Source of the DNA: an uncultured Bacteroidia bacterium
Lineage (GTDB): Bacteria; Bacteroidota; Bacteroidia; Bacteroidales; UBA932
NCBI GenBank assembly: GCA_902762655.1
Contig: CACWOZ010000003.1
Location: 147,774 to 211,773 of the forward strand
Direction of reading: 5' to 3'
DNA: 64,000 nucleotides
In this document: piece by piece, positions 3,473 through 12,147 of the stretch
Numbering within the stretch: position 1 is the stretch's first letter
Layout: the number at the start of each line of letters is the position of its first letter
The notes under the pieces: model-generated
Databases searched by the model: none
What the model was told of the DNA's origin: nothing
The model's input: the letters and a program-made list of their open reading frames with translations, nothing else
Program-made: the position numbers and the translations under genes

Positions 3473-6400
3473 ATGAAAGTGAAATTCAAATTCTTTTGCT
3501 GTCTTCTCCTTGCGGCAGGTTTCGTGGCCTGCTCCCAGAAGGAGGAGCCCCTTGTGCCGGAGGAAGAAATAACTCCTTCGACTGAGGAAACTGACGGAGA
3601 GTTCTCCTATGTCTTCAAGGTGGGCAATCCCGAAACCAAGACCTCGTTCGACACCGATCACGTGGCTTGGAATGCAGATGATCTGGTAGCTTCTTATGCC
3701 CTGACATCATTGAACAAATCCACTCCTGTAACTATTGATGGCAGCGGTATCCCGCACATTACCATCCGCAGTTCAGTGGCTCTTTCGGCCGGTGACATGG
3801 TCTATGCTTACTATCCGCACAGCAGTGCAAACAATAGTAAGGGAGCTGATGCAGTGACTCTTGAAATCCCTCGCAATCAGGTTTCTGGCAGCGCGGATGC
3901 AATGCCTATGGTAGCACTTCCGTTCGAACTGACGGGCGATGTGCCCAAATACACCAATCAGGAAGTTGGTACCATCCGTTTCCTGAATTTGGGTTCCGTC
4001 GTCAAACTGAACATTTACTCCAGCAACGCTTCTTACCAGGGTGAGACCATCGAAAACGTGACCTTCCAGGCTGGCGTAGCATGTGCAGGTACCTTTACAT
4101 ATGACCTCACTACTGCAAATGCATCATCCCCTGCTGCCATCAGCGGCTATACGGAAACTGATGTCGTTGTTACAGGAAATGGGGCCAGCCCTATTACCGT
4201 CGGCACGAACTCCTCGAACGGCGGCGTGTTCTACTTCGTGGTAGCTCCTGGTACTTATAGCGGAACATTCAAGATTCGCACCAACAAGGCCGAATACACC
4301 TATGTTTCAGGATCTTCTCGCGAATACAAACGTGCAGGCTTAAAGCCGCTCAATCTGGATCTGGCAAGCGCTAACTGGACTCCGGTTATTGGCGGTTATG
4401 ACACCAGCATAGACTCACCCCGCGAGTTTGCGGCATTCCTTGCCGGCACAGACTCAGGTGATACGGGTGATTACACCATTACGGCCGACCTTGACATGAC
4501 CGGCTACACCATCACCAGCGCCTCCGGCTTTGGCGGAACGCTCGATGGCGGTAATCATTCTATAAAGAATCTTTCCTCTAGCGTGCCAATGTTCGCGACC
4601 AATGCCGGAACTATTCAGAATCTCATTATTGATGCTAGTTGCACCTTTACTGCAGGTAGCAAAGAATTCGCACCGCTGGTGAAGATTGATAATGGAGGTA
4701 CATACACTTCAGTTCGGAACAAGGCCGATGTTACATTGACTGCTACAGCCAACGAAACCGAACAGGTTATTCTCGGCGGCCTTGTGGCTGTGGCTAAAGG
4801 TGCAACATTCAGCGGCTGCTCCAACGGCGGCGAAATCAAATATGACGCTACCGGCTACAATCACAAGCAGGTTGCCCTTGGTGGTATTGTGGGTCTTATT
4901 GATAACTCCACTGCCAACTCTACTTTCTCCTCCTGCGTCAACCGCGGGCCGATAACATTGCTTGCTGTCTATGGTGATCCCAATGTTAGTTACACCTACG
5001 GAGGCGCAAAGGGTATTAATCTAGCTGGTATTGCCGGCGTATCCACATATAATGATAACTATAAAGCCTCGTTTGACCAATGCGACAACGAAACAGCAGG
5101 CGTCATATACCTCAAGCATACGGATATCACAGGGCTTGCTGCAGATACCGGCAATACCGGACCTGTTTGTGTCGCCGGCATTGTGGGTTTGGGCCAGGCG
5201 GATTTCAACAAATGCAAGAACTATGCTCTCATTAAGGCGGAATCCCTCGTTACAGGTGAACCCTCCGAGAGTGAAATGAAGAAGAGGAATTATCTGCTCG
5301 CCGTAGGCGGCATCTCCGGTATGGGTTGGGATGTTTTGGGTATGTCCTCGTGTACGAATTCCGGAAACATCGAAGTGGAGTACTACGGGCTGTATGATGC
5401 CGATGACAAGTGGCGTGCTGCGGTTGGCGGCATCTGCGCTTATCCTGGTTACAATACCGGCAGTTATGCCTATTATTGCAAGATGCAAGGCGACATTACC
5501 GTAACCGGTAAAGGCACCATGGCTGTTGGCGGCATCTTCGGATGGAGTGGTAAGCAGATTAAGAACACGGTCACGGCAGATTGTTCCATCTCAGTTAACG
5601 GTCGCAAGGGTGATGTCGGTGGCCTTGTCGGTTATGTGGCCGGCAGTGCTGCAAATTACACCATTAAGGGATGCACTTGTGCCGCTACCATTTTTGCCGA
5701 CAGCGACTGGGGTTCTGCCGGAAAGGATTGGTACTATCACATTGGTGGACTTATGGGCCGCTGGGGTGGAGCCAATTCAGGCAGTTATCCCAGCATGACT
5801 AATAGGGACGGTGATCCTTGTGTATTCAGCGGGTCTATATCCTCTGTCTATCAGGTGCGTGTCGGTGTTGTTGTGGGCAGAGTTGTTGGAAGCAGCAAGA
5901 CCATAGTCTTCGGCGAAAGCGACAATCCTATTCAGGCGACAGGTACCATTGAAAGGGGTGGTCTCTCGCAGACGGCAATTACGTCTGCTAATATTGAGAC
6001 GTACAAATGTGGCAGCGATGCCAATACGGGTACAACCACAATATATGTAACTTGTCCGGATACTAAAGTAGCATGTCTTAATATCCGTGAGGGTAGCCAT
6101 TGGAGTGACCGCAAAGGTGCCATTGTCGCTATGATTAACGGCGAGCACCCGGCCATCATCGGCCTGCAGGAGGTGAAGGATCTAGACTATTGGGATCATC
6201 TTACCGAAGACCATCCCTGGGACTATCTAAAAGATAACCTCAGTGCTTACACGGGCTACCGTGCAAGCACTGACGATTGCCATACTCCGTTCCTGTACGA
6301 CAGTTCAATCCTCACCGTCACGGGGACAGGCTGTTTCTGGCTTCGTGACAATTACAGCACTGCCGGTGACAGCTGGGACGGATATGTCAGGTCCGTTACA

Positions 6401-6856
6401 TACGCCAATATTTACAACAAGAACAGCAAGAAGAACTATTTTTTCGTGAATGCTCACCTTCCGCTTAGTTCGGATGGTCAGGTTAATGCAATGGAGCTGC
6501 TCGAAAGCCGTATTTCAGCCTTGAATACCAACGGCTATCCGGTCATTCTGATGGGTGATTTCAACACCGTTTACAGCAATGACGACGCTTTCGGCAGCAT
6601 CAAGACCAAGATGTATAACACCCGCTATTCGGCCACTTCCGTTCTCAGCACCGAGAATCGTGACCTGTACACATACAACGCTTTCGGCGATAGCAGCAAG
6701 GACCGCAATAAGGTGGATCACATCTGGGTGAGCAAATCCGTCAAAACACTCTATTATCTTACACTTACACAGTCCGTTCACGATTACGGCGGATATACCT
6801 CCAACGGCGAGAAATTCTTGTCCGACCATTATCCGATTATCGCAGTTATTGTTTAA
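3473..6856 (+). CDS. Three-part surface lipoprotein: fimbrillin-like region, GLUG-like repeats, C-terminal endonuclease/exonuclease/phosphatase domain
   Basis: 1127 residues from the ATG at 3473 (lipobox FVAC, Cys20; the upstream in-frame ATG lies inside the previous gene). Residues ~40-295 resemble fimbrillin/Mfa-type domains of Bacteroidales (ETKTSF, MVYAYYPHSS). Residues ~300-850 are Gly-rich repeats homologous to the preceding gene. Residues ~862-1127 form an EEP-superfamily domain with what looks like the full catalytic set: Asn870 (CLNIRE), Glu900 (LQEV), His995 (NAHLPL), Asp1029/Asn1031 (GDFN), Asp1082-His1083 and Asp1118-His1119 (SDHYP). EEP enzymes cleave phosphodiesters or phosphomonoesters with a divalent metal; DNA, lipid or phospho-glycan substrates are all possible. 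Outer-surface location is inferred from the lipoprotein signal. Confidence 0.85.
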   Translation: MKVKFKFFCCLLLAAGFVACSQKEEPLVPEEEITPSTEETDGEFSYVFKVGNPETKTSFDTDHVAWNADDLVASYALTSLNKSTPVTIDGSGIPHITIRSSVALSAGDMVYAYYPHSSANNSKGADAVTLEIPRNQVSGSADAMPMVALPFELTGDVPKYTNQEVGTIRFLNLGSVVKLNIYSSNASYQGETIENVTFQAGVACAGTFTYDLTTANASSPAAISGYTETDVVVTGNGASPITVGTNSSNGGVFYFVVAPGTYSGTFKIRTNKAEYTYVSGSSREYKRAGLKPLNLDLASANWTPVIGGYDTSIDSPREFAAFLAGTDSGDTGDYTITADLDMTGYTITSASGFGGTLDGGNHSIKNLSSSVPMFATNAGTIQNLIIDASCTFTAGSKEFAPLVKIDNGGTYTSVRNKADVTLTATANETEQVILGGLVAVAKGATFSGCSNGGEIKYDATGYNHKQVALGGIVGLIDNSTANSTFSSCVNRGPITLLAVYGDPNVSYTYGGAKGINLAGIAGVSTYNDNYKASFDQCDNETAGVIYLKHTDITGLAADTGNTGPVCVAGIVGLGQADFNKCKNYALIKAESLVTGEPSESEMKKRNYLLAVGGISGMGWDVLGMSSCTNSGNIEVEYYGLYDADDKWRAAVGGICAYPGYNTGSYAYYCKMQGDITVTGKGTMAVGGIFGWSGKQIKNTVTADCSISVNGRKGDVGGLVGYVAGSAANYTIKGCTCAATIFADSDWGSAGKDWYYHIGGLMGRWGGANSGSYPSMTNRDGDPCVFSGSISSVYQVRVGVVVGRVVGSSKTIVFGESDNPIQATGTIERGGLSQTAITSANIETYKCGSDANTGTTTIYVTCPDTKVACLNIREGSHWSDRKGAIVAMINGEHPAIIGLQEVKDLDYWDHLTEDHPWDYLKDNLSAYTGYRASTDDCHTPFLYDSSILTVTGTGCFWLRDNYSTAGDSWDGYVRSVTYANIYNKNSKKNYFFVNAHLPLSSDGQVNAMELLESRISALNTNGYPVILMGDFNTVYSNDDAFGSIKTKMYNTRYSATSVLSTENRDLYTYNAFGDSSKDRNKVDHIWVSKSVKTLYYLTLTQSVHDYGGYTSNGEKFLSDHYPIIAVIV

Positions 6857-6867
6857 ATAGTCCTGTT

Positions 6868-6999
6868 ATGAAAAAATATATGGAACCAAACTGTCAGGTT
6901 TTAATTATGAAAATAGGCAGTATTATTTGTGGTTCTCCGGGCTTCGACGCAATAGATGCAACGGAAGAATTCATTATTGATGCTGAAGAATTAATTTAA
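6868..6999 (+). CDS. Small ICGS-motif peptide A (43 residues)
   Basis: Short open frame starting MKKYMEP and containing IICGSPGF, ending with the acidic tail DAEELI. It is the upstream member of a pair. With the next short frame it shares the pattern Y-x2-P-x3-V-x9-I-C-G-S, with the same 13-residue spacing between Pro and Cys, and an acidic Ile-ended tail. Shared spacing in two adjacent frames argues that both are translated. Similar short Bacteroidales frames with a Y-x2-P start and a hydrophobic segment are familiar to me, but I know of no assigned function. It has no standard signal peptide. It lies 11 bases after the EEP lipoprotein and seems to be in the same operon. Peptide signal, ribosomally made modified peptide or leader peptide are all open. 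Confidence 0.6.
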   Translation: MKKYMEPNCQVLIMKIGSIICGSPGFDAIDATEEFIIDAEELI

Positions 7000-7003
7000 T
7001 TCA

Positions 7004-7138
7004 ATGGACATGAGTAAAGAATACAAAACTCCTGTCATCAGTGTTGTTTCTTTTATCCAACATGGAGTTATCTGTGGTTCTTTCGACCAGAATAACCTGA
7101 CAGAAATATTGTTGACGGAAGACGAAGAAACCATCTGA
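7004..7138 (+). CDS. Small ICGS-motif peptide B (44 residues)
   Basis: Short open frame (ATG 7004, or ATG 7010 two codons later) containing EYKTPVISV and VICGSF, and ending TEDEETI. It shares motif and spacing with the peptide encoded just upstream: Tyr, Pro, Val, then I-C-G-S, then an acidic tail. Its stop codon overlaps the start of the lyase/hydrolase gene (TGATG at 7136-7140), an arrangement typical of translational coupling. This supports real translation of the short frame. No modification enzyme or dedicated exporter is visible in the window. Function unknown. Confidence 0.62.
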   Translation: MDMSKEYKTPVISVVSFIQHGVICGSFDQNNLTEILLTEDEETI

Positions 7139-10100
7139 TGTTCAAATCTTTACTGATTGCGTTGGCAACGTTTGCAGCGGCCTTTAACCCGTTGCAAAGG
7201 GCTTCGCAGAATGTTGATATTGCCTCATCCCTGGTCATGCACCAGGGATGGGTGCATTATCCATCCTATTCAGACAGGGACGGTTGGGCAACTTTTCTGG
7301 GGGAATACCAGGACGACTTATCGGACGATGGATTGGAATTCATCGGATACACGTGGCAGGACATAACCGAAGAAGACTACCTTGCCTATGACCGTTACGA
7401 TGACCGCCATCCGATGGAAGATAAGTATTTTGCCAACGCGAGAGCTCTGAGAAATCTTTTCATAGCTGAGCTCGCTGAAGGGAAAGGACGTTACATGAAT
7501 GATATTGCCGCTGGTGTAGAATGGTACTGTGGTATGTATTCTTGGGCGGTTGTTTCCCATCTGGCGAAGTACCAGAAAAGCAAGAGCCCCGTACCGGATC
7601 GTAGTGAGCAGATCATCGAACTGTATTCCGGAAACATATCTCAATTGCTGTCCTGGGTTTACTATTTCCTGGGACCGTATTTGGACGAGTTGAATTCAGG
7701 TCTTTCCCTTAGGCTTAAATGCTCCATAAAAGAAAAGACTTTGGATCCCTATTTGGAGAGAGACGACTTCCGTTGGATGGGCTTTGTGCCCGTCCCGGGG
7801 AAGAAACTCAATAACTGGAACCCCTGGTGCAACCAGAACATCCTCCTCTGCTTTATGCTGCTGGAGGATGACCGGGAAACGCTTGCCAAAGCGGTGGAGA
7901 AATCCATTCGTTCGGTGGACCTGTGGCTGAATTCGCTGCCCCCCGATGGTTGTTGCGACGAAGGCACCACATATTGGTATAAGTCCGTCGGCCATTTGCT
8001 TGACTACCTCGAGAACCTTGAACGCATCACCGGCGGGGCCGTATCCCTCTGGGATGAGCCTTTTCTCCAGCGTATAGGAGAATATATCGTCAATGCTGAC
8101 ATCGGCGACTGCTGGCAGGTGAATTTTGCCGACGGGACTCCGTCCAGAAGGCCTATCTCCTATTGGATATACCGTTATGGAAAAGCATCCGGTAACAAGT
8201 TGATGACGGATTTTGCCGTAAATGCATGGCATCGTTTCGGCAATGATCCTACGGATGTGGATTGGGTGTTGTTCTATCAGGGGCTCGAGGCAGTGGCCGC
8301 GTGCCGTGAGATGAAGGCGCAGCCTTCGCCGGATGTCGCGCCCCAACCGTTCGTATACTATCCCGAGTCCGAAGTGTGCTTTGCCCGTGCAGGGGAGGGC
8401 TTTCTCGCCGCAAAGGGTGGGAATAACGGTGAGCGCCACAACCACAACGACATCGGGTCCTGTATCTACTTCCATGACAACGCTCCCGTGCTTATTGATG
8501 CCGGCGTAGGCACGTACGAAAAGAACACTTTTGGCCCCCGCCGTTACGAGAACTGGTTCGTGCAGAGCGGGTGGCATAATCTACCCGTCATCAAGGGCTG
8601 CTCGCAGCCCTTTGGTGGGGAGTACAAGGCCTCTGGCAGCCATGCAAGCAGGTTGTTGAGGCGTTTTTCGACCGACATTGCCGGGGCCTATCCTGATTCC
8701 GCTGGGGTGGAGTCCTGGAATATGGTATACCGTCTTTCCCGCAAGGGCGGCTTGAAAATCACTCACAGGTTTTCGTTGAAAGAGACCCTCGCGCCCAATG
8801 TGCTGCATTTCCTCGTGGCAGACAAGCCGGAAATCATAGTCAACGGCACCATCACCCTGCCGGGAGGTATGCAGATGAGTTATGATCCCGACTTGTTTAC
8901 CGCAAGTATAGAGGAGAAAAGTCTTGTCGGTCTTGGGTTCAGCTCCCGCTGGGGAGATGCCCTGTACCGTATAAGCCTGACGGCCAGAAGGCAGGATAAG
9001 CGAGGACGCTATGTTATCAAGATAGATGCCTCGAAGAAAGAGACCATCCCGGACATTGCCGAAAGGGTGAGCGGCCTGGCGAAGGCGCAGTATCAGCTTC
9101 TGGACGAACGCCTCGCTCCCGACATGACGCCGCGTGGCATCTATCCCGACGGCAGTCCGAAGGATTGCAGCGTGGGTTCCTGGACCAGTGGCTTCTTCCC
9201 CGGAGCGCTTTGGCAGTTATATGGCCTGTCTCCGGATCCTGACATCCTGTCTATGGCAGAGAGGCGTACTCTGGCTCTGGATTGTCTTCTGGACTTCCCT
9301 CAAAGTCACGATCTTGGCTTCCAGGTGAACTGCAGTTACGGAAATGCCTACAGGTTCACAGGGGATTCCAGATATCTTCCGCTCATAGAAAACGGCGCTG
9401 CGGCGCTCTCATCCCGTTTCAACCCTGCTGTGGGGGCGACTCTCAGCTGGGCAAGAGGGGAGAAGGGGGCTGAATATCCTGTCATCATAGACAATATAAT
9501 GAACCTGGAGTTGCTGGAATATGCATCGAAGCTGTTCTACTGTGACACTTTAAATGACATCGCAGTAAAGCACGCCGAGACGACGATGGAGAACCATTTT
9601 CGCCCGGATTATTCCTGCTATCACATGCTGGATTATGACCCTGCCACCGGCGCCGTGCTTCGCAAGGTGACCGTCCAGGGCTACGCCGACGAAAGTGCCT
9701 GGGCACGCGGGCAGGCATGGGCTCTTTATGGCTACACGATGATGTACTGTGAAACCCGGAAAGCCGAGTTCCTGCATCAGGCCGAGAATATTGCGAACAT
9801 GCTTCTCGAGCGCCTCCCGGCAGACGGAATCCCATACTGGGACTTCGATGATCCGGAGATTCCCAATACATATAAGGATGCATCTGCCGCTGCAGTCATG
9901 TGTTCGGCGTTCATAGAACTGAGCGGCCTTTCGAAGGACAGGAAACTGTCGAAGAAATGCTCCGCAATGGCAGAGAGGCAGATTCGCACTCTTGCTTCTC
10001 CCCAATATCTGGCCGCGCCCGGAGAAAATGCTGGTTTCCTGCTGAAGCACAGTGTGGGAAACCTCCCCGGCGGCAGCGAGATCGACACTCCGCTCATTTA

Positions 10101-10149
10101 TGCGGATTATTATTTCCTGGAAGCTTTGAATAGATATAAAAACAAGTGA
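7138..10149 (+). CDS. Fused heparinase II/III-like polysaccharide lyase and GH88 unsaturated glucuronyl hydrolase
   Basis: 1003 residues with an N-terminal hydrophobic export signal (FKSLLIALATFAAAF). Residues ~60-390 form a helical toroid-like region and ~400-640 a heparinase II/III-type C-terminal part with the H-x-H-x-D-x-G signature (His434, His436, Asp438). Residues ~650-1003 are a GH88 domain: SWTSGFFPG, HDLGF with Asp725, and IIDNIMN with Asp785, matching the two catalytic Asp residues of the family, plus GQAWALYGY. The lyase would cleave a uronate-containing chain by beta-elimination and the GH88 domain would remove the resulting unsaturated uronic acid, so both steps sit on one polypeptide. 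The usual arrangement is two separate genes. No sulfatase lies nearby, so a sulfated glycosaminoglycan is not favoured. The gene starts on the stop of the small peptide gene. Confidence 0.9.
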   Translation: MFKSLLIALATFAAAFNPLQRASQNVDIASSLVMHQGWVHYPSYSDRDGWATFLGEYQDDLSDDGLEFIGYTWQDITEEDYLAYDRYDDRHPMEDKYFANARALRNLFIAELAEGKGRYMNDIAAGVEWYCGMYSWAVVSHLAKYQKSKSPVPDRSEQIIELYSGNISQLLSWVYYFLGPYLDELNSGLSLRLKCSIKEKTLDPYLERDDFRWMGFVPVPGKKLNNWNPWCNQNILLCFMLLEDDRETLAKAVEKSIRSVDLWLNSLPPDGCCDEGTTYWYKSVGHLLDYLENLERITGGAVSLWDEPFLQRIGEYIVNADIGDCWQVNFADGTPSRRPISYWIYRYGKASGNKLMTDFAVNAWHRFGNDPTDVDWVLFYQGLEAVAACREMKAQPSPDVAPQPFVYYPESEVCFARAGEGFLAAKGGNNGERHNHNDIGSCIYFHDNAPVLIDAGVGTYEKNTFGPRRYENWFVQSGWHNLPVIKGCSQPFGGEYKASGSHASRLLRRFSTDIAGAYPDSAGVESWNMVYRLSRKGGLKITHRFSLKETLAPNVLHFLVADKPEIIVNGTITLPGGMQMSYDPDLFTASIEEKSLVGLGFSSRWGDALYRISLTARRQDKRGRYVIKIDASKKETIPDIAERVSGLAKAQYQLLDERLAPDMTPRGIYPDGSPKDCSVGSWTSGFFPGALWQLYGLSPDPDILSMAERRTLALDCLLDFPQSHDLGFQVNCSYGNAYRFTGDSRYLPLIENGAAALSSRFNPAVGATLSWARGEKGAEYPVIIDNIMNLELLEYASKLFYCDTLNDIAVKHAETTMENHFRPDYSCYHMLDYDPATGAVLRKVTVQGYADESAWARGQAWALYGYTMMYCETRKAEFLHQAENIANMLLERLPADGIPYWDFDDPEIPNTYKDASAAAVMCSAFIELSGLSKDRKLSKKCSAMAERQIRTLASPQYLAAPGENAGFLLKHSVGNLPGGSEIDTPLIYADYYFLEALNRYKNK

Positions 10150-10172
10150 TTTGAAATATGAGAATACTCACC
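10015..10172 (+). repeat. Direct repeat, left copy (GH88 tail to GH39 start)
   Basis: This stretch covers the last 45 codons of the lyase/GH88 gene, the 8-base gap and the first codons of the GH39-like gene. It recurs at 11978-12135 without indels over the first 135 bases, mostly with third-base changes. The right copy is a fragment. Confidence 0.85.
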
Positions 10173-11570
10173 TCTTTGTTTTTGTCTTTAATGACTGCGG
10201 TGGCACTGACAGCACAGGTTACTGTATTTCCTGCCGATGAAAAAGGCCCTATCAAGCGCATGAACGCCGTGAACAACGGCCCTCGCATCAACAATGCCGA
10301 GCAGGTGTATACCGGCACGACCGGCTATTTCAAGGCGGCCAACGTGGGTTATTCCCGCAATCACGATGCCGCAGGAGCCGGAGCTTATGGCGAACACGTG
10401 GTGGACATTTCTATTATTTTTCCGGATTTCTCGAAGAATCCCAACAAACCAGAGTCATATGACTTCACACTCACCGACAGATACGTAAAGAGTATCCAGG
10501 ATGCCGGCGTGGAGGTGTTCTACCGTCTTGGGCAAAGCATTGAGAACCAGCCGCTCAAGAAGTACAACATCTATCCTCCCAAGGACAACAGAAAGTGGGC
10601 GCAGATTTGCGAACACATCATTCGCCATTACAACGAGGGCTGGGCGGACGGTTTCCACTACAACATAAAGTACTGGGAAGTCTGGAATGAGCCCAACCTC
10701 GAATGGGACAACGACAAATGGAAGGTGGATCCCCGTTGCTGGGCGGGCTCTCCTGAACAGTTCTACGACTTTTTCGAGGTCGCCGTGAAGTACCTCAAAG
10801 GCTGCTTCCCGGACCTGCATATAGGCGGCCCCGCCATGTCCGGCAGGGATCCCGGCGTAAGGGAGATTCCGGTGTGGTATGAGAGGCTCCTTTCCGAGAT
10901 GCAGCGCCGTCAGGTGCCGCTGGACTTCTTTGCCTGGCATATTTACGAATATGATCCCACGGTTTATGTGGATTATTCATATCAGGTGCGTGCCCTGCTG
11001 GACAAGTACGGCTACAAGAATACCGAGTCTTTCCTGAACGAATGGAATTACATCAAGAGCTGGACCGACGACTATCCCTATTCCTCCCGTACGATGACCT
11101 CTCCCAAAGCCGGAGCCTTTGTCTGCGCATCCATGCAGGAGGGCCAGAACTGCCCTACGGATATGATGATGTACTACGACTGGCGGCCGGGTACGGTATT
11201 CAATGGCCTTTTCGATGCATATACTGATGCGCCCCTCTGGAGTTACTGGGCCTTGTATGCCTGGGGAAAACTTAAGACTCTGGGCACACAGGTCAGAGCT
11301 GTATGTGATATTCCCGACGTCCGCGTTACCGCTGCATGCGATCCTGCCGGGATCCTTGGCATACTTGTAAGCAGGTATGTCATAGACGATAACATTACGG
11401 CTGTCAAGGATGTTACTGTGCGTCTTGATGGCGGAAAGTTCGATGATAAGGTCCGTTGCCACATCACCGACCAGTTCAATATGTACACGGAGTATCCTGT
11501 TGCTCTCCAGCCCGACGGAACGCTCCTGCTGCCCATGCAACCCTATTCGTTCGTGTATATAGAGTATTAA
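10158..11570 (+). CDS. GH39-like secreted glycoside hydrolase
   Basis: 470 residues with a signal peptide (RILTSLFLSLMTAVALTAQ). It is a clan GH-A TIM-barrel enzyme of GH39 type: acid/base Glu178 in WEVWNEPN and nucleophile Glu295 in FLNEWNY. The 117-residue spacing suits this clan. GH39 includes beta-xylosidases and alpha-L-iduronidases; a retaining hydrolase acting on products of the lyase just upstream (gap 8 bases) is the natural inference, but the sugar cannot be named from the sequence. It is the last intact gene of the first transcription block. The bases around its start codon recur at 12113-12147, next to a copy of the GH88 3' end. Confidence 0.82.
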   Translation: MRILTSLFLSLMTAVALTAQVTVFPADEKGPIKRMNAVNNGPRINNAEQVYTGTTGYFKAANVGYSRNHDAAGAGAYGEHVVDISIIFPDFSKNPNKPESYDFTLTDRYVKSIQDAGVEVFYRLGQSIENQPLKKYNIYPPKDNRKWAQICEHIIRHYNEGWADGFHYNIKYWEVWNEPNLEWDNDKWKVDPRCWAGSPEQFYDFFEVAVKYLKGCFPDLHIGGPAMSGRDPGVREIPVWYERLLSEMQRRQVPLDFFAWHIYEYDPTVYVDYSYQVRALLDKYGYKNTESFLNEWNYIKSWTDDYPYSSRTMTSPKAGAFVCASMQEGQNCPTDMMMYYDWRPGTVFNGLFDAYTDAPLWSYWALYAWGKLKTLGTQVRAVCDIPDVRVTAACDPAGILGILVSRYVIDDNITAVKDVTVRLDGGKFDDKVRCHITDQFNMYTEYPVALQPDGTLLLPMQPYSFVYIEY

Positions 11571-11977: not shown

Positions 11978-12147
11978 GCTCCGGGAGAGAATGGCGGCTT
12001 CCTGCTGAAGCATAGTGTGGGGAATCTCCCCGGCGGCAGTGAAATAGACACCCCGCTCATCTATGCGGATTATTATTTCCTGGAAGCGTTAAATAGATAT
12101 AGAAACAAGTGATTCAAAACATGAGAATGTTTGTCTCATTGTTATTG
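11978..12147 (+). pseudogene. Fragment: 3' end of a second GH88 gene plus the start of a GH39-like gene
   Basis: From 11978 to 12112 the translation matches the last 44 residues of the upstream GH88 domain almost exactly (GGFLLKHSVGNLPGGSEIDT, ending in ALNRYRNK and TGA). After the same 8-base spacing an ATG at 12121 opens with MRMFVSLLL, similar to the MRILTSLFLS start of the GH39-like protein, and then the likeness ends at the border of the ATPase gene (12153). The fragment is the tail of an earlier tandem copy of the lyase/GH88-GH39 pair that has been deleted or overwritten. Confidence 0.82.

Follow-up and report, generated by a model that had tools for sequence, protein, structure and literature searches.

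Two precursor-like frames in the window

In a stretch of 64,000 nucleotides from an uncultured member of the Bacteroidales (hereafter the window), two very short open reading frames lie on the + strand between the genes of a surface lipoprotein and of a heparinase/GH88-like protein. The question raised by this locus is whether the two frames are genes and, if so, what their products might do. Peptide 1 (43 amino acids) is encoded at positions 6868-6999 and peptide 2 (44 amino acids) at positions 7004-7138. In an alignment of 35 peptides, a leader part was delimited in both of them, Y4-x2-P7 ... I-C21-G-S23 at 6877-6936 in peptide 1 and Y7-x2-P10 ... I-C24-G-S26 at 7022-7081 in peptide 2. An acidic tail follows (6937-6996 and 7082-7135, respectively); that of peptide 1 is variable and is the putative core, its boundary being set by analogy with the linear polyphosphorylated peptides (LPP) discussed below. 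By eye, the tail of peptide 2 is of the T-E-x4-[ED]-D-x-E type, in common with L004, L035, L038, L039, L041 and L059.

The original prediction had described both frames, their Y-x2-P, a Val at Pro+4, Ile-Cys-Gly-Ser from Pro+13, acidic tails ending in Ile and the overlap of peptide 2 with the GH88 gene, and all these features were recovered when the sequence was read again. The overlap concerns a single base, shared by the stop codon of peptide 2 and the ATG of the heparinase/GH88 gene (TGATG at 7136-7140).

In the genome of the window (G000), 14 peptides were matched by the family profile at E ≤10 and 10 at E ≤0.01. As this profile contained both window members, another one was built from 33 relatives, neither window peptide being included. 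With the leave-out profile, the two peptides took ranks 1 and 2 of the 465 ORFs in the window (E 7.3e-13 for peptide 1 and 4.7e-15 for peptide 2), and rank 3 was occupied by an ORF at E 3.9. Scanning of 6400-7400 detected no promoter-like site on the + strand and no terminator-like site. Judged by sequence comparison, the two frames are very probably genuine coding genes.

Peptide family and coding constraint

Searches performed with either window peptide in 101 genomes of the same genus gave many weak matches of like shape. Since loose regular-expression scans for Y-x2-P yield many junk ORFs, counts were taken from profile scores instead. The family pattern is Y-x2-P, usually C-x-S with the Cys at Pro+14, then an acidic tail. 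In the alignment of 35 peptides, Tyr and Pro never vary, and conservation is at least 90% for Cys and for Ser. C-x-S is found in 55 of the 63 peptides among the same-genus matches listed, and in 48 of these 55 the Cys stands at Pro+14; several members in G000 have Leu, Met or Ala at the Cys position, usually with a Ser 2-3 residues further on. The ICGS motif, for which conservation had been claimed, is thus common to the window pair, but family-wide its Cys is present only in part of the members.

The absence of a nameable family was also borne out, the search of 35 members against Pfam and NCBIfam having returned no fitting family. A match of peptide 2 to the Pfam family GP3 (E 0.018) and a few other weak family matches were attributed to chance. 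When the peptide profile was run across the phylum, matches at E ≤0.1 were obtained in 17 of 296 genomes, several of them inside long ORFs; for absence to be judged, this profile is too weak.

Nine pairs of peptides were compared at their synonymous and nonsynonymous sites. Five gave a usable dN/dS, all well below 1: 0.059/0.664 (L018/L022), 0.128/0.807 (L186/L187), 0.008/0.173 (two copies in L266), 0.272/0.807 (L064/L056) and 0.322/1.363 (L067/L315). In three pairs, including peptide 1 and L004, the synonymous sites were saturated (dN 0.20-0.43), and one pair (L188/L296) was identical. Synonymous/non-synonymous ratios had been proposed as a check of coding constraint, and the low values in the usable relative pairs agree with the claim that the two frames are translated paralogues. 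The window pair itself is identical in G084 at 282/282 bases, in between flanking stretches that differ by 4.2% and 2.1%; with 92 differences in the 2847 flanking bases, such an identity has a chance probability of 1e-4 at an even rate. Because the silent sites are unchanged too, this is conservation and no proof of coding constraint.

Two further observations were made in these comparisons. When compared with L003 (G084), window segments 5369-6856 and 7138-8497 have more nonsynonymous than synonymous differences (44 to 17 and 22 to 7, respectively). Peptides beginning MKKKLMYEVPDAELIELK, present in L188, L283, L292 and L296, combine a constant leader with differing tails (those of L188 and L296 being the same); in L283, L292 and L296 their distance to the peptidase gene is +4.1 to +5.6 kb.

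Genes that follow the peptides

Upstream of peptide 1, positions 3473-6856 (+ strand, with the start codon MKVKFKF.. chosen in this analysis) encode a surface lipoprotein with a fimbrillin/Mfa-like N-domain, GLUG-like repeats recognized by eye and a C-terminal endonuclease/exonuclease/phosphatase domain (PF03372, E 5e-12). Our fimbrillin-like profile, built without this protein, matched it at E 9.5e-20 with filters off and missed it with default filters. Downstream of peptide 2, positions 7138-10149 (+ strand) encode a heparinase II/III-like and GH88-like protein (PF07940, E 2.8e-6, above the cut-off; PF07470, E 2.3e-5, below the cut-off).

The frames had been assigned to a polysaccharide locus, and this link proved to be no general rule. 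The best-match loci of the same-genus searches, G000 and G084 being left out, furnished 63 distinct peptides, of which, among the matches listed, 50 sit -20 to +23 nt before the gene of a fimbrillin-like lipoprotein. The other 13 precede something else (8), stand at contig ends (3) or have no following ORF (2). Because a signal peptide alone could give matches to the fimbrillin-like profile, the following genes were counted again with signal peptides ignored: 48 of 58 still matched (two were lost), vs 13 of 762 background genes, again among the matches listed. In 3 of the 8 cases with another next gene (L038, L039 and L059), the peptide has a one-base overlap with a heparinase/GH88-like gene, which repeats what is seen with peptide 2. 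The predicted coupling to the GH88 gene is therefore seen in the window and in three other genomes, but as a minority arrangement.

In G000, all 12 peptide matches outside the window lie directly before a gene of lipoprotein type, in L101 with a one-base overlap; at several loci, the first ORF ahead of a divergent gene is the peptide frame. The fimbrillin-like profile, with the product in question left out of it, recovered 10 of the 12 following products, the two of L098 being missed. In leave-one-out runs, it recovered 14 of 17 N-termini; the decoy set contained the window lipoprotein, whose matches were discounted, and one true decoy was matched (2.3e-4). The cut-off of Pfam Mfa_like_1 was reached by 1 of 10 partners tested, plus L099, and the assignment of the rest relies on our own profile.

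In G004, a homologue of peptide 1 precedes a lipoprotein which, when aligned with the product of 3473-6856, showed 60.7% identity in 496 columns. If a tandem array had been reshuffled and had lost a lipoprotein gene from between the two peptides, the present order in the window would be accounted for. The window also contains a 170-nt direct repeat, 84% identical, at 10015-10184 and 11978-12147, a second copy of the heparinase/GH88 3' end being located behind the GH39 gene.

The relation between peptides and following lipoproteins was followed in 49 pairs, 1 of 50 having been removed by a length or motif filter. Similarity of the tails correlated with that of the lipoproteins (Spearman 0.166; 0 of 1000 permutations as high), vs -0.026 for the leaders (660 of 1000 as high). 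The tail correlation persisted after similar lipoproteins had been dropped (n = 46 and 43). The effect is small and no demonstration of contact; a pattern of this kind would be expected of a leader recognized by a common set of enzymes and of a tail that depends on the adjacent lipoprotein.

A candidate maturation operon

On contig C8 of the same genome, a four-gene operon at 64.6-67.8 kb encodes an HprK-type kinase, a signal peptidase, a discrete recognition element for ribosomally synthesized, post-translationally modified peptides (RiPP recognition element, RRE) and an ABC exporter. The RRE matches PqqD/RRE PF05402 with E 5.6e-15; it is the one discrete RRE of the genome, a second PqqD domain being located inside a 482-aa frame. 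The nearest NCBIfam models to the operon genes include ScmC, the lasso PqqD and the Ni-SOD maturation protease, all below cut-off. Elsewhere in this genome (contig C9, L136, 7484-8908), a 474-aa PqqD plus radical SAM/SPASM-like protein is apparently a second peptide-modifying enzyme.

Structure models of the RRE and of the kinase were made from the relative L221, whose proteins are 92% and 80% identical to those of G000, respectively. For the RRE model, the top Foldseek matches in the PDB were the lasso RRE-leader complexes 5v1u, 5v1v and 6jx3 (E 1.1e-4 to 3.8e-4, TM 0.74-0.78). Asn35 and Asp73 are invariant in 78/78 RREs and align with an Asn and an Asp of TfuB1 in 6jx3. In LppB, N33 and D70 are reported to hold the Pro and the Tyr of the leader (PMC13381572). 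On the basis of the alignment, Asn35 and Asp73 are taken as the probable counterparts of these two residues, mapped through TfuB1 rather than through LppB itself.

For the kinase model, PEPCK and HprK folds were the best PDB matches, and the P-loop is invariant in 34 sequences. The kinase sequence profile, when compared with the PDB, placed CDK7 first (E 0.001) and PEPCK only at 0.016; the match to CDK7 was taken for chance. The signal peptidase is of the archaeal/SEC11 type, with S33, H71 and D86 invariant in 11/11 sequences and SEC11A (SEC11A/C) as best PDB match (E 4.7e-4). The exporter is a 542-aa ABC protein, for which CydC (E 3.8e-65) was the best NCBIfam model and MsbA_rel gave E 3.4e-54, all below cut-off.

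When public genomes were scanned with the peptidase, 342 loci were obtained; the best 80 of them are titled Bacteroidales or Bacteroidia, many coming from ruminants. Within this set (best 80 of 342), the peptidase has the kinase as its neighbour in 80/80 loci, the RRE is found in 79 and the exporter in 77. A NTP-transferase is absent from the four genes read in the G000 operon and was detected at 5 of the same best 80 of 342 loci, by one BLAST query. Elsewhere in the order, a number of loci do encode it (L375 and L383, by PF14907).

Co-occurrence of peptides and operon

A PqqD/RRE-type match was found in 90 of 100 same-genus genomes that are at least 90% complete. Co-occurrence was examined in all 10 RRE-lacking genomes and in 20 hand-picked from the 90 RRE-bearing ones. 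Peptides at E ≤0.01 were present in 19/20 RRE-bearing vs 1/10 RRE-lacking genomes, with a Fisher p of 6.7e-6 that is without phylogenetic correction for shared ancestry. The signal peptidase was present in 20/20 RRE-bearing genomes, as in G000, vs 0/10 RRE-lacking ones. Two genomes are exceptions. G095, an assembly 91% complete, has 3 peptides and neither RRE nor peptidase. In G013, the machinery is encoded but the profile matched no peptide at E 0.01; a fimbrillin-like gene of this genome (L329) is nonetheless preceded by one diverged Y-x2-P frame.

Fimbrillin-like lipoproteins are also encoded in RRE-lacking genomes: leaving G095 aside, 7 of the 9 genomes gave 36 matches in all, and the profile search found none in G529 and G571; G095 itself gave 4. 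With one script applied to both sets, a Y-x2-P frame upstream of the lipoprotein gene was found in 0/9 cases with a resolved start in RRE-lacking genomes vs 7/11 in the RRE-bearing G000, G005, G046 and G072 (p 0.005). The 0/9 set stems from 14 loci examined, among which L310, L311, L320 and L324 had no start and L305, with an internal start, was set aside; none of the nine comes from G095, where the frame of L312 was missed by an upstream start and was seen for that gene in L184. In the 7/11 set, L325 (G000) was scored as a miss though it carries a Y-x-P variant. All nine lipoprotein genes of the RRE-lacking genomes start at -4 to +34 nt from the gene before them, and no Y-x2-P frame intervenes.

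These data bear on the explanation by which the frames are cis-acting leaders, whose translation couples ribosomes to the next gene or attenuates it, the peptide itself being disposable. The distance of -20 to +23 nt in the 50 listed cases and the TGATG overlap in the window are what such leaders would have. A disposable peptide should, however, hardly keep leader residues at nearly fixed spacing and a low dN/dS in relatives, nor should its presence track an unlinked RRE operon; furthermore, the nine lipoprotein genes just mentioned have no such frame at similar distances. This explanation is therefore considered unlikely, although translational coupling may be an additional effect.

Another explanation is that the peptides are unmodified structural or assembly partners of the fimbrillin-like lipoproteins, for instance a strand or a chaperone-like peptide. 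Both the pairing with the next gene and the covariation of tail and lipoprotein would fit, and the fimbrillin-like N-domain of the usual neighbour recalls the type V pilus (FimA/Mfa) of Bacteroidales. No signal peptide is apparent by eye, however, and an unmodified partner would not account for the co-occurrence with the RRE/kinase/peptidase operon. In addition, a loose scan, judged by eye, gave no Y-x2-P frame in the clusters L137-L139 of the same genome, where Mfa_like_1 genes of stronger match are found, and we know of no such peptide from fim/mfa loci. We regard unmodified partners as improbable, more so than cis-acting leaders, and keep the reading of the peptides as modified precursors.

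Relation to known peptide systems

Y-x2-P is the leader motif bound by lasso-type RREs (PMC12710340 and PMC13381572). In the work of Popov et al. 2026 (PMC13381572), LPP are called restricted to Bacillota, no word beginning 'Bacteroid' occurs in the main text, and the discussion gives the role of LPP-type peptides as unknown. The precursor consensus reported there is YxxPxVLxHQxIxFETxxS, with one to three precursors per cluster, and the modified Ser is S3 of the core. With this description, the present system shares the discrete YxxP-binding RRE, the HprK-like kinase, the archaeal-type signal peptidase I and the MsbA-like exporter, a NTP-transferase in some clusters, and short precursors with a conserved N-terminus and a variable C-terminus.

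There are also differences from this description. In the alignment of 35, only YxxP and a Ser at Pro+16 (Pro+15 in LPP) are retained, HQ and FET being absent; given this spacing of 16 instead of 15, the exact cut site is only putative. LPP precursors lie in the cluster, whereas about a dozen are dispersed in the present genome; the NTP-transferase is absent from the G000 operon and from all but 5/80 close operons (best 80 of 342); and no pairing with a lipoprotein enters the sections of the LPP description that were consulted. The system is kept apart from the members of the LPP class because the full leader consensus, an in-cluster precursor and the NTP-transferase were not found in G000. No earlier description of such peptides or of such a system in Bacteroidota was found in the open-access literature, including passages of PMC12710340, PMC10352776, PMC7533575, PMC7470986 and PMC13376575.

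The same leader motif is used by lasso peptides, and precursors of a cyclised product are thus another candidate. The RRE fold is closest to lasso RREs, and paeninodin-like phosphorylated lasso peptides combine a RRE and a [Y/W]xxP leader with an HprK-like kinase and a NTP-transferase. In the same genus, positions 1447-3196 of L141 (G013) contain a RRE, a short frame with W-x2-P and, after it, a large ORF; together they look like a lasso-peptide cluster. The four genes of the G000 operon are nevertheless kinase, peptidase, RRE and exporter, with no macrolactam cyclase or B2-type protease among them; the peptides have Y rather than W, and a linear product is expected. On the gene content of this operon, a lasso product is very improbable. 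That the frames are spurious ORFs or decaying gene fragments, for which only the lack of family annotation speaks, is contradicted by the profile E-values, the placement and the dN/dS of relatives and hardly deserves consideration.

Proposed explanation

The reading that we prefer, with a probability of roughly three in four, is that the two frames encode dispersed RiPP precursors, matured in trans by an LPP-like Bacteroidales system and in partnership with lipoproteins. Among the three guesses of the original prediction, that of modified-peptide precursors is favoured by the RRE-type leader motif, the matching RRE/kinase/signal-peptidase/exporter operon and the co-occurrence; the window peptides may also be secreted signals or regulators of the locus. 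The family, its gene pairing, the operon, the co-occurrence, the motif, the folds and the coding constraint in relatives are computed directly. From them, and by analogy with LPP, we infer RRE binding, phosphorylation, cleavage, export and an action on the lipoprotein.

In the proposed mechanism, the leader, from Y-x2-P to about C-x-S, would be held by the discrete RRE encoded elsewhere in the genome (C8). The HprK-type kinase would then phosphorylate the Ser of C-x-S, two residues after the Cys, and the signal peptidase would cut next to or near that Ser. The MsbA-like exporter would carry the acidic tail out, where the tail may meet the lipoprotein. In this way, about a dozen precursors would depend on one central operon, and the genes of most of them stand immediately in front of that of one fimbrillin-like lipoprotein, to which the tail would be matched and with which it probably acts at the cell surface. 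A more tentative proposal, slightly less likely than not, is the general picture of a central operon with dispersed precursors, most dedicated to one lipoprotein each, as a trans-acting RiPP system by which Bacteroidales would supply their surface lipoproteins with fitting (phospho)peptides that serve as ligands, caps or signals.

If this explanation is true, a relative exists of the RiPP pathway that the 2026 report confined to Bacillota. This relative would be almost ubiquitous in one large genus, as judged from the RRE-type match in 90/100 genomes and from the LPP-type peptidase in all 20 of those tested, and would also occur elsewhere in the order (peptidase in 42/296 genomes). Dispersed precursors would escape cluster-based mining, being far from their enzymes. 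The tie to lipoproteins would give such peptides a first testable role, and the pairing of a peptide with a surface protein hints at a kind of partnership not recognised before.

Peptides and machinery in other families

Within the genus, an enrichment of precursors near the operon was rejected: 8 profile matches were found in 1.30 Mb around 80 operons (best 80 of 342), which is about the density in G000. When the search was extended beyond the genus, the peptidase was found in 42 of 296 genomes. Forty of these were taken, G000 and G604 being left out; 2 belong to the genus of the window and 1 to its family. The 40 loci contained 5 leader-profile matches at E ≤0.01. Three of them have a machinery gene on their own strand no more than 250 nt away (p 0.034, given a base rate of 16%); for the other 2, the distance to the machinery is 2.0 and 3.5 kb.

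The three adjacent peptides come from three other families of the order and correspond, unlike the operons of the genus, to the in-cluster precursor of LPP. In L383, the order is peptide-kinase-peptidase-RRE-NTP-transferase-exporter, with the peptide about 35-40 nt before the kinase; in L375, the peptide lies about 120 nt after the NTP-transferase. In L368 (NTP-transferase-kinase-peptidase-peptide-lipoprotein-transposase-RRE-exporter), it lies about 245 nt after the peptidase and 25 nt from the lipoprotein gene, whose product matches the fimbrillin-like profile only over the signal peptide and the residues just after. For three further candidates (L387, L388 and L391), the profile gave weak matches or none, and part of the gene set is lacking at several of the 40 loci.

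The transposase gene of L368, of PD-(D/E)XK type, occupies 9892-10866, between the lipoprotein and the RRE. In L398 (G695), on the - strand between kinase-like and peptidase-like genes, five tandem short frames carry Y-Q-x-P-E-L and variable tails rich in Cys, Ser and Gly.
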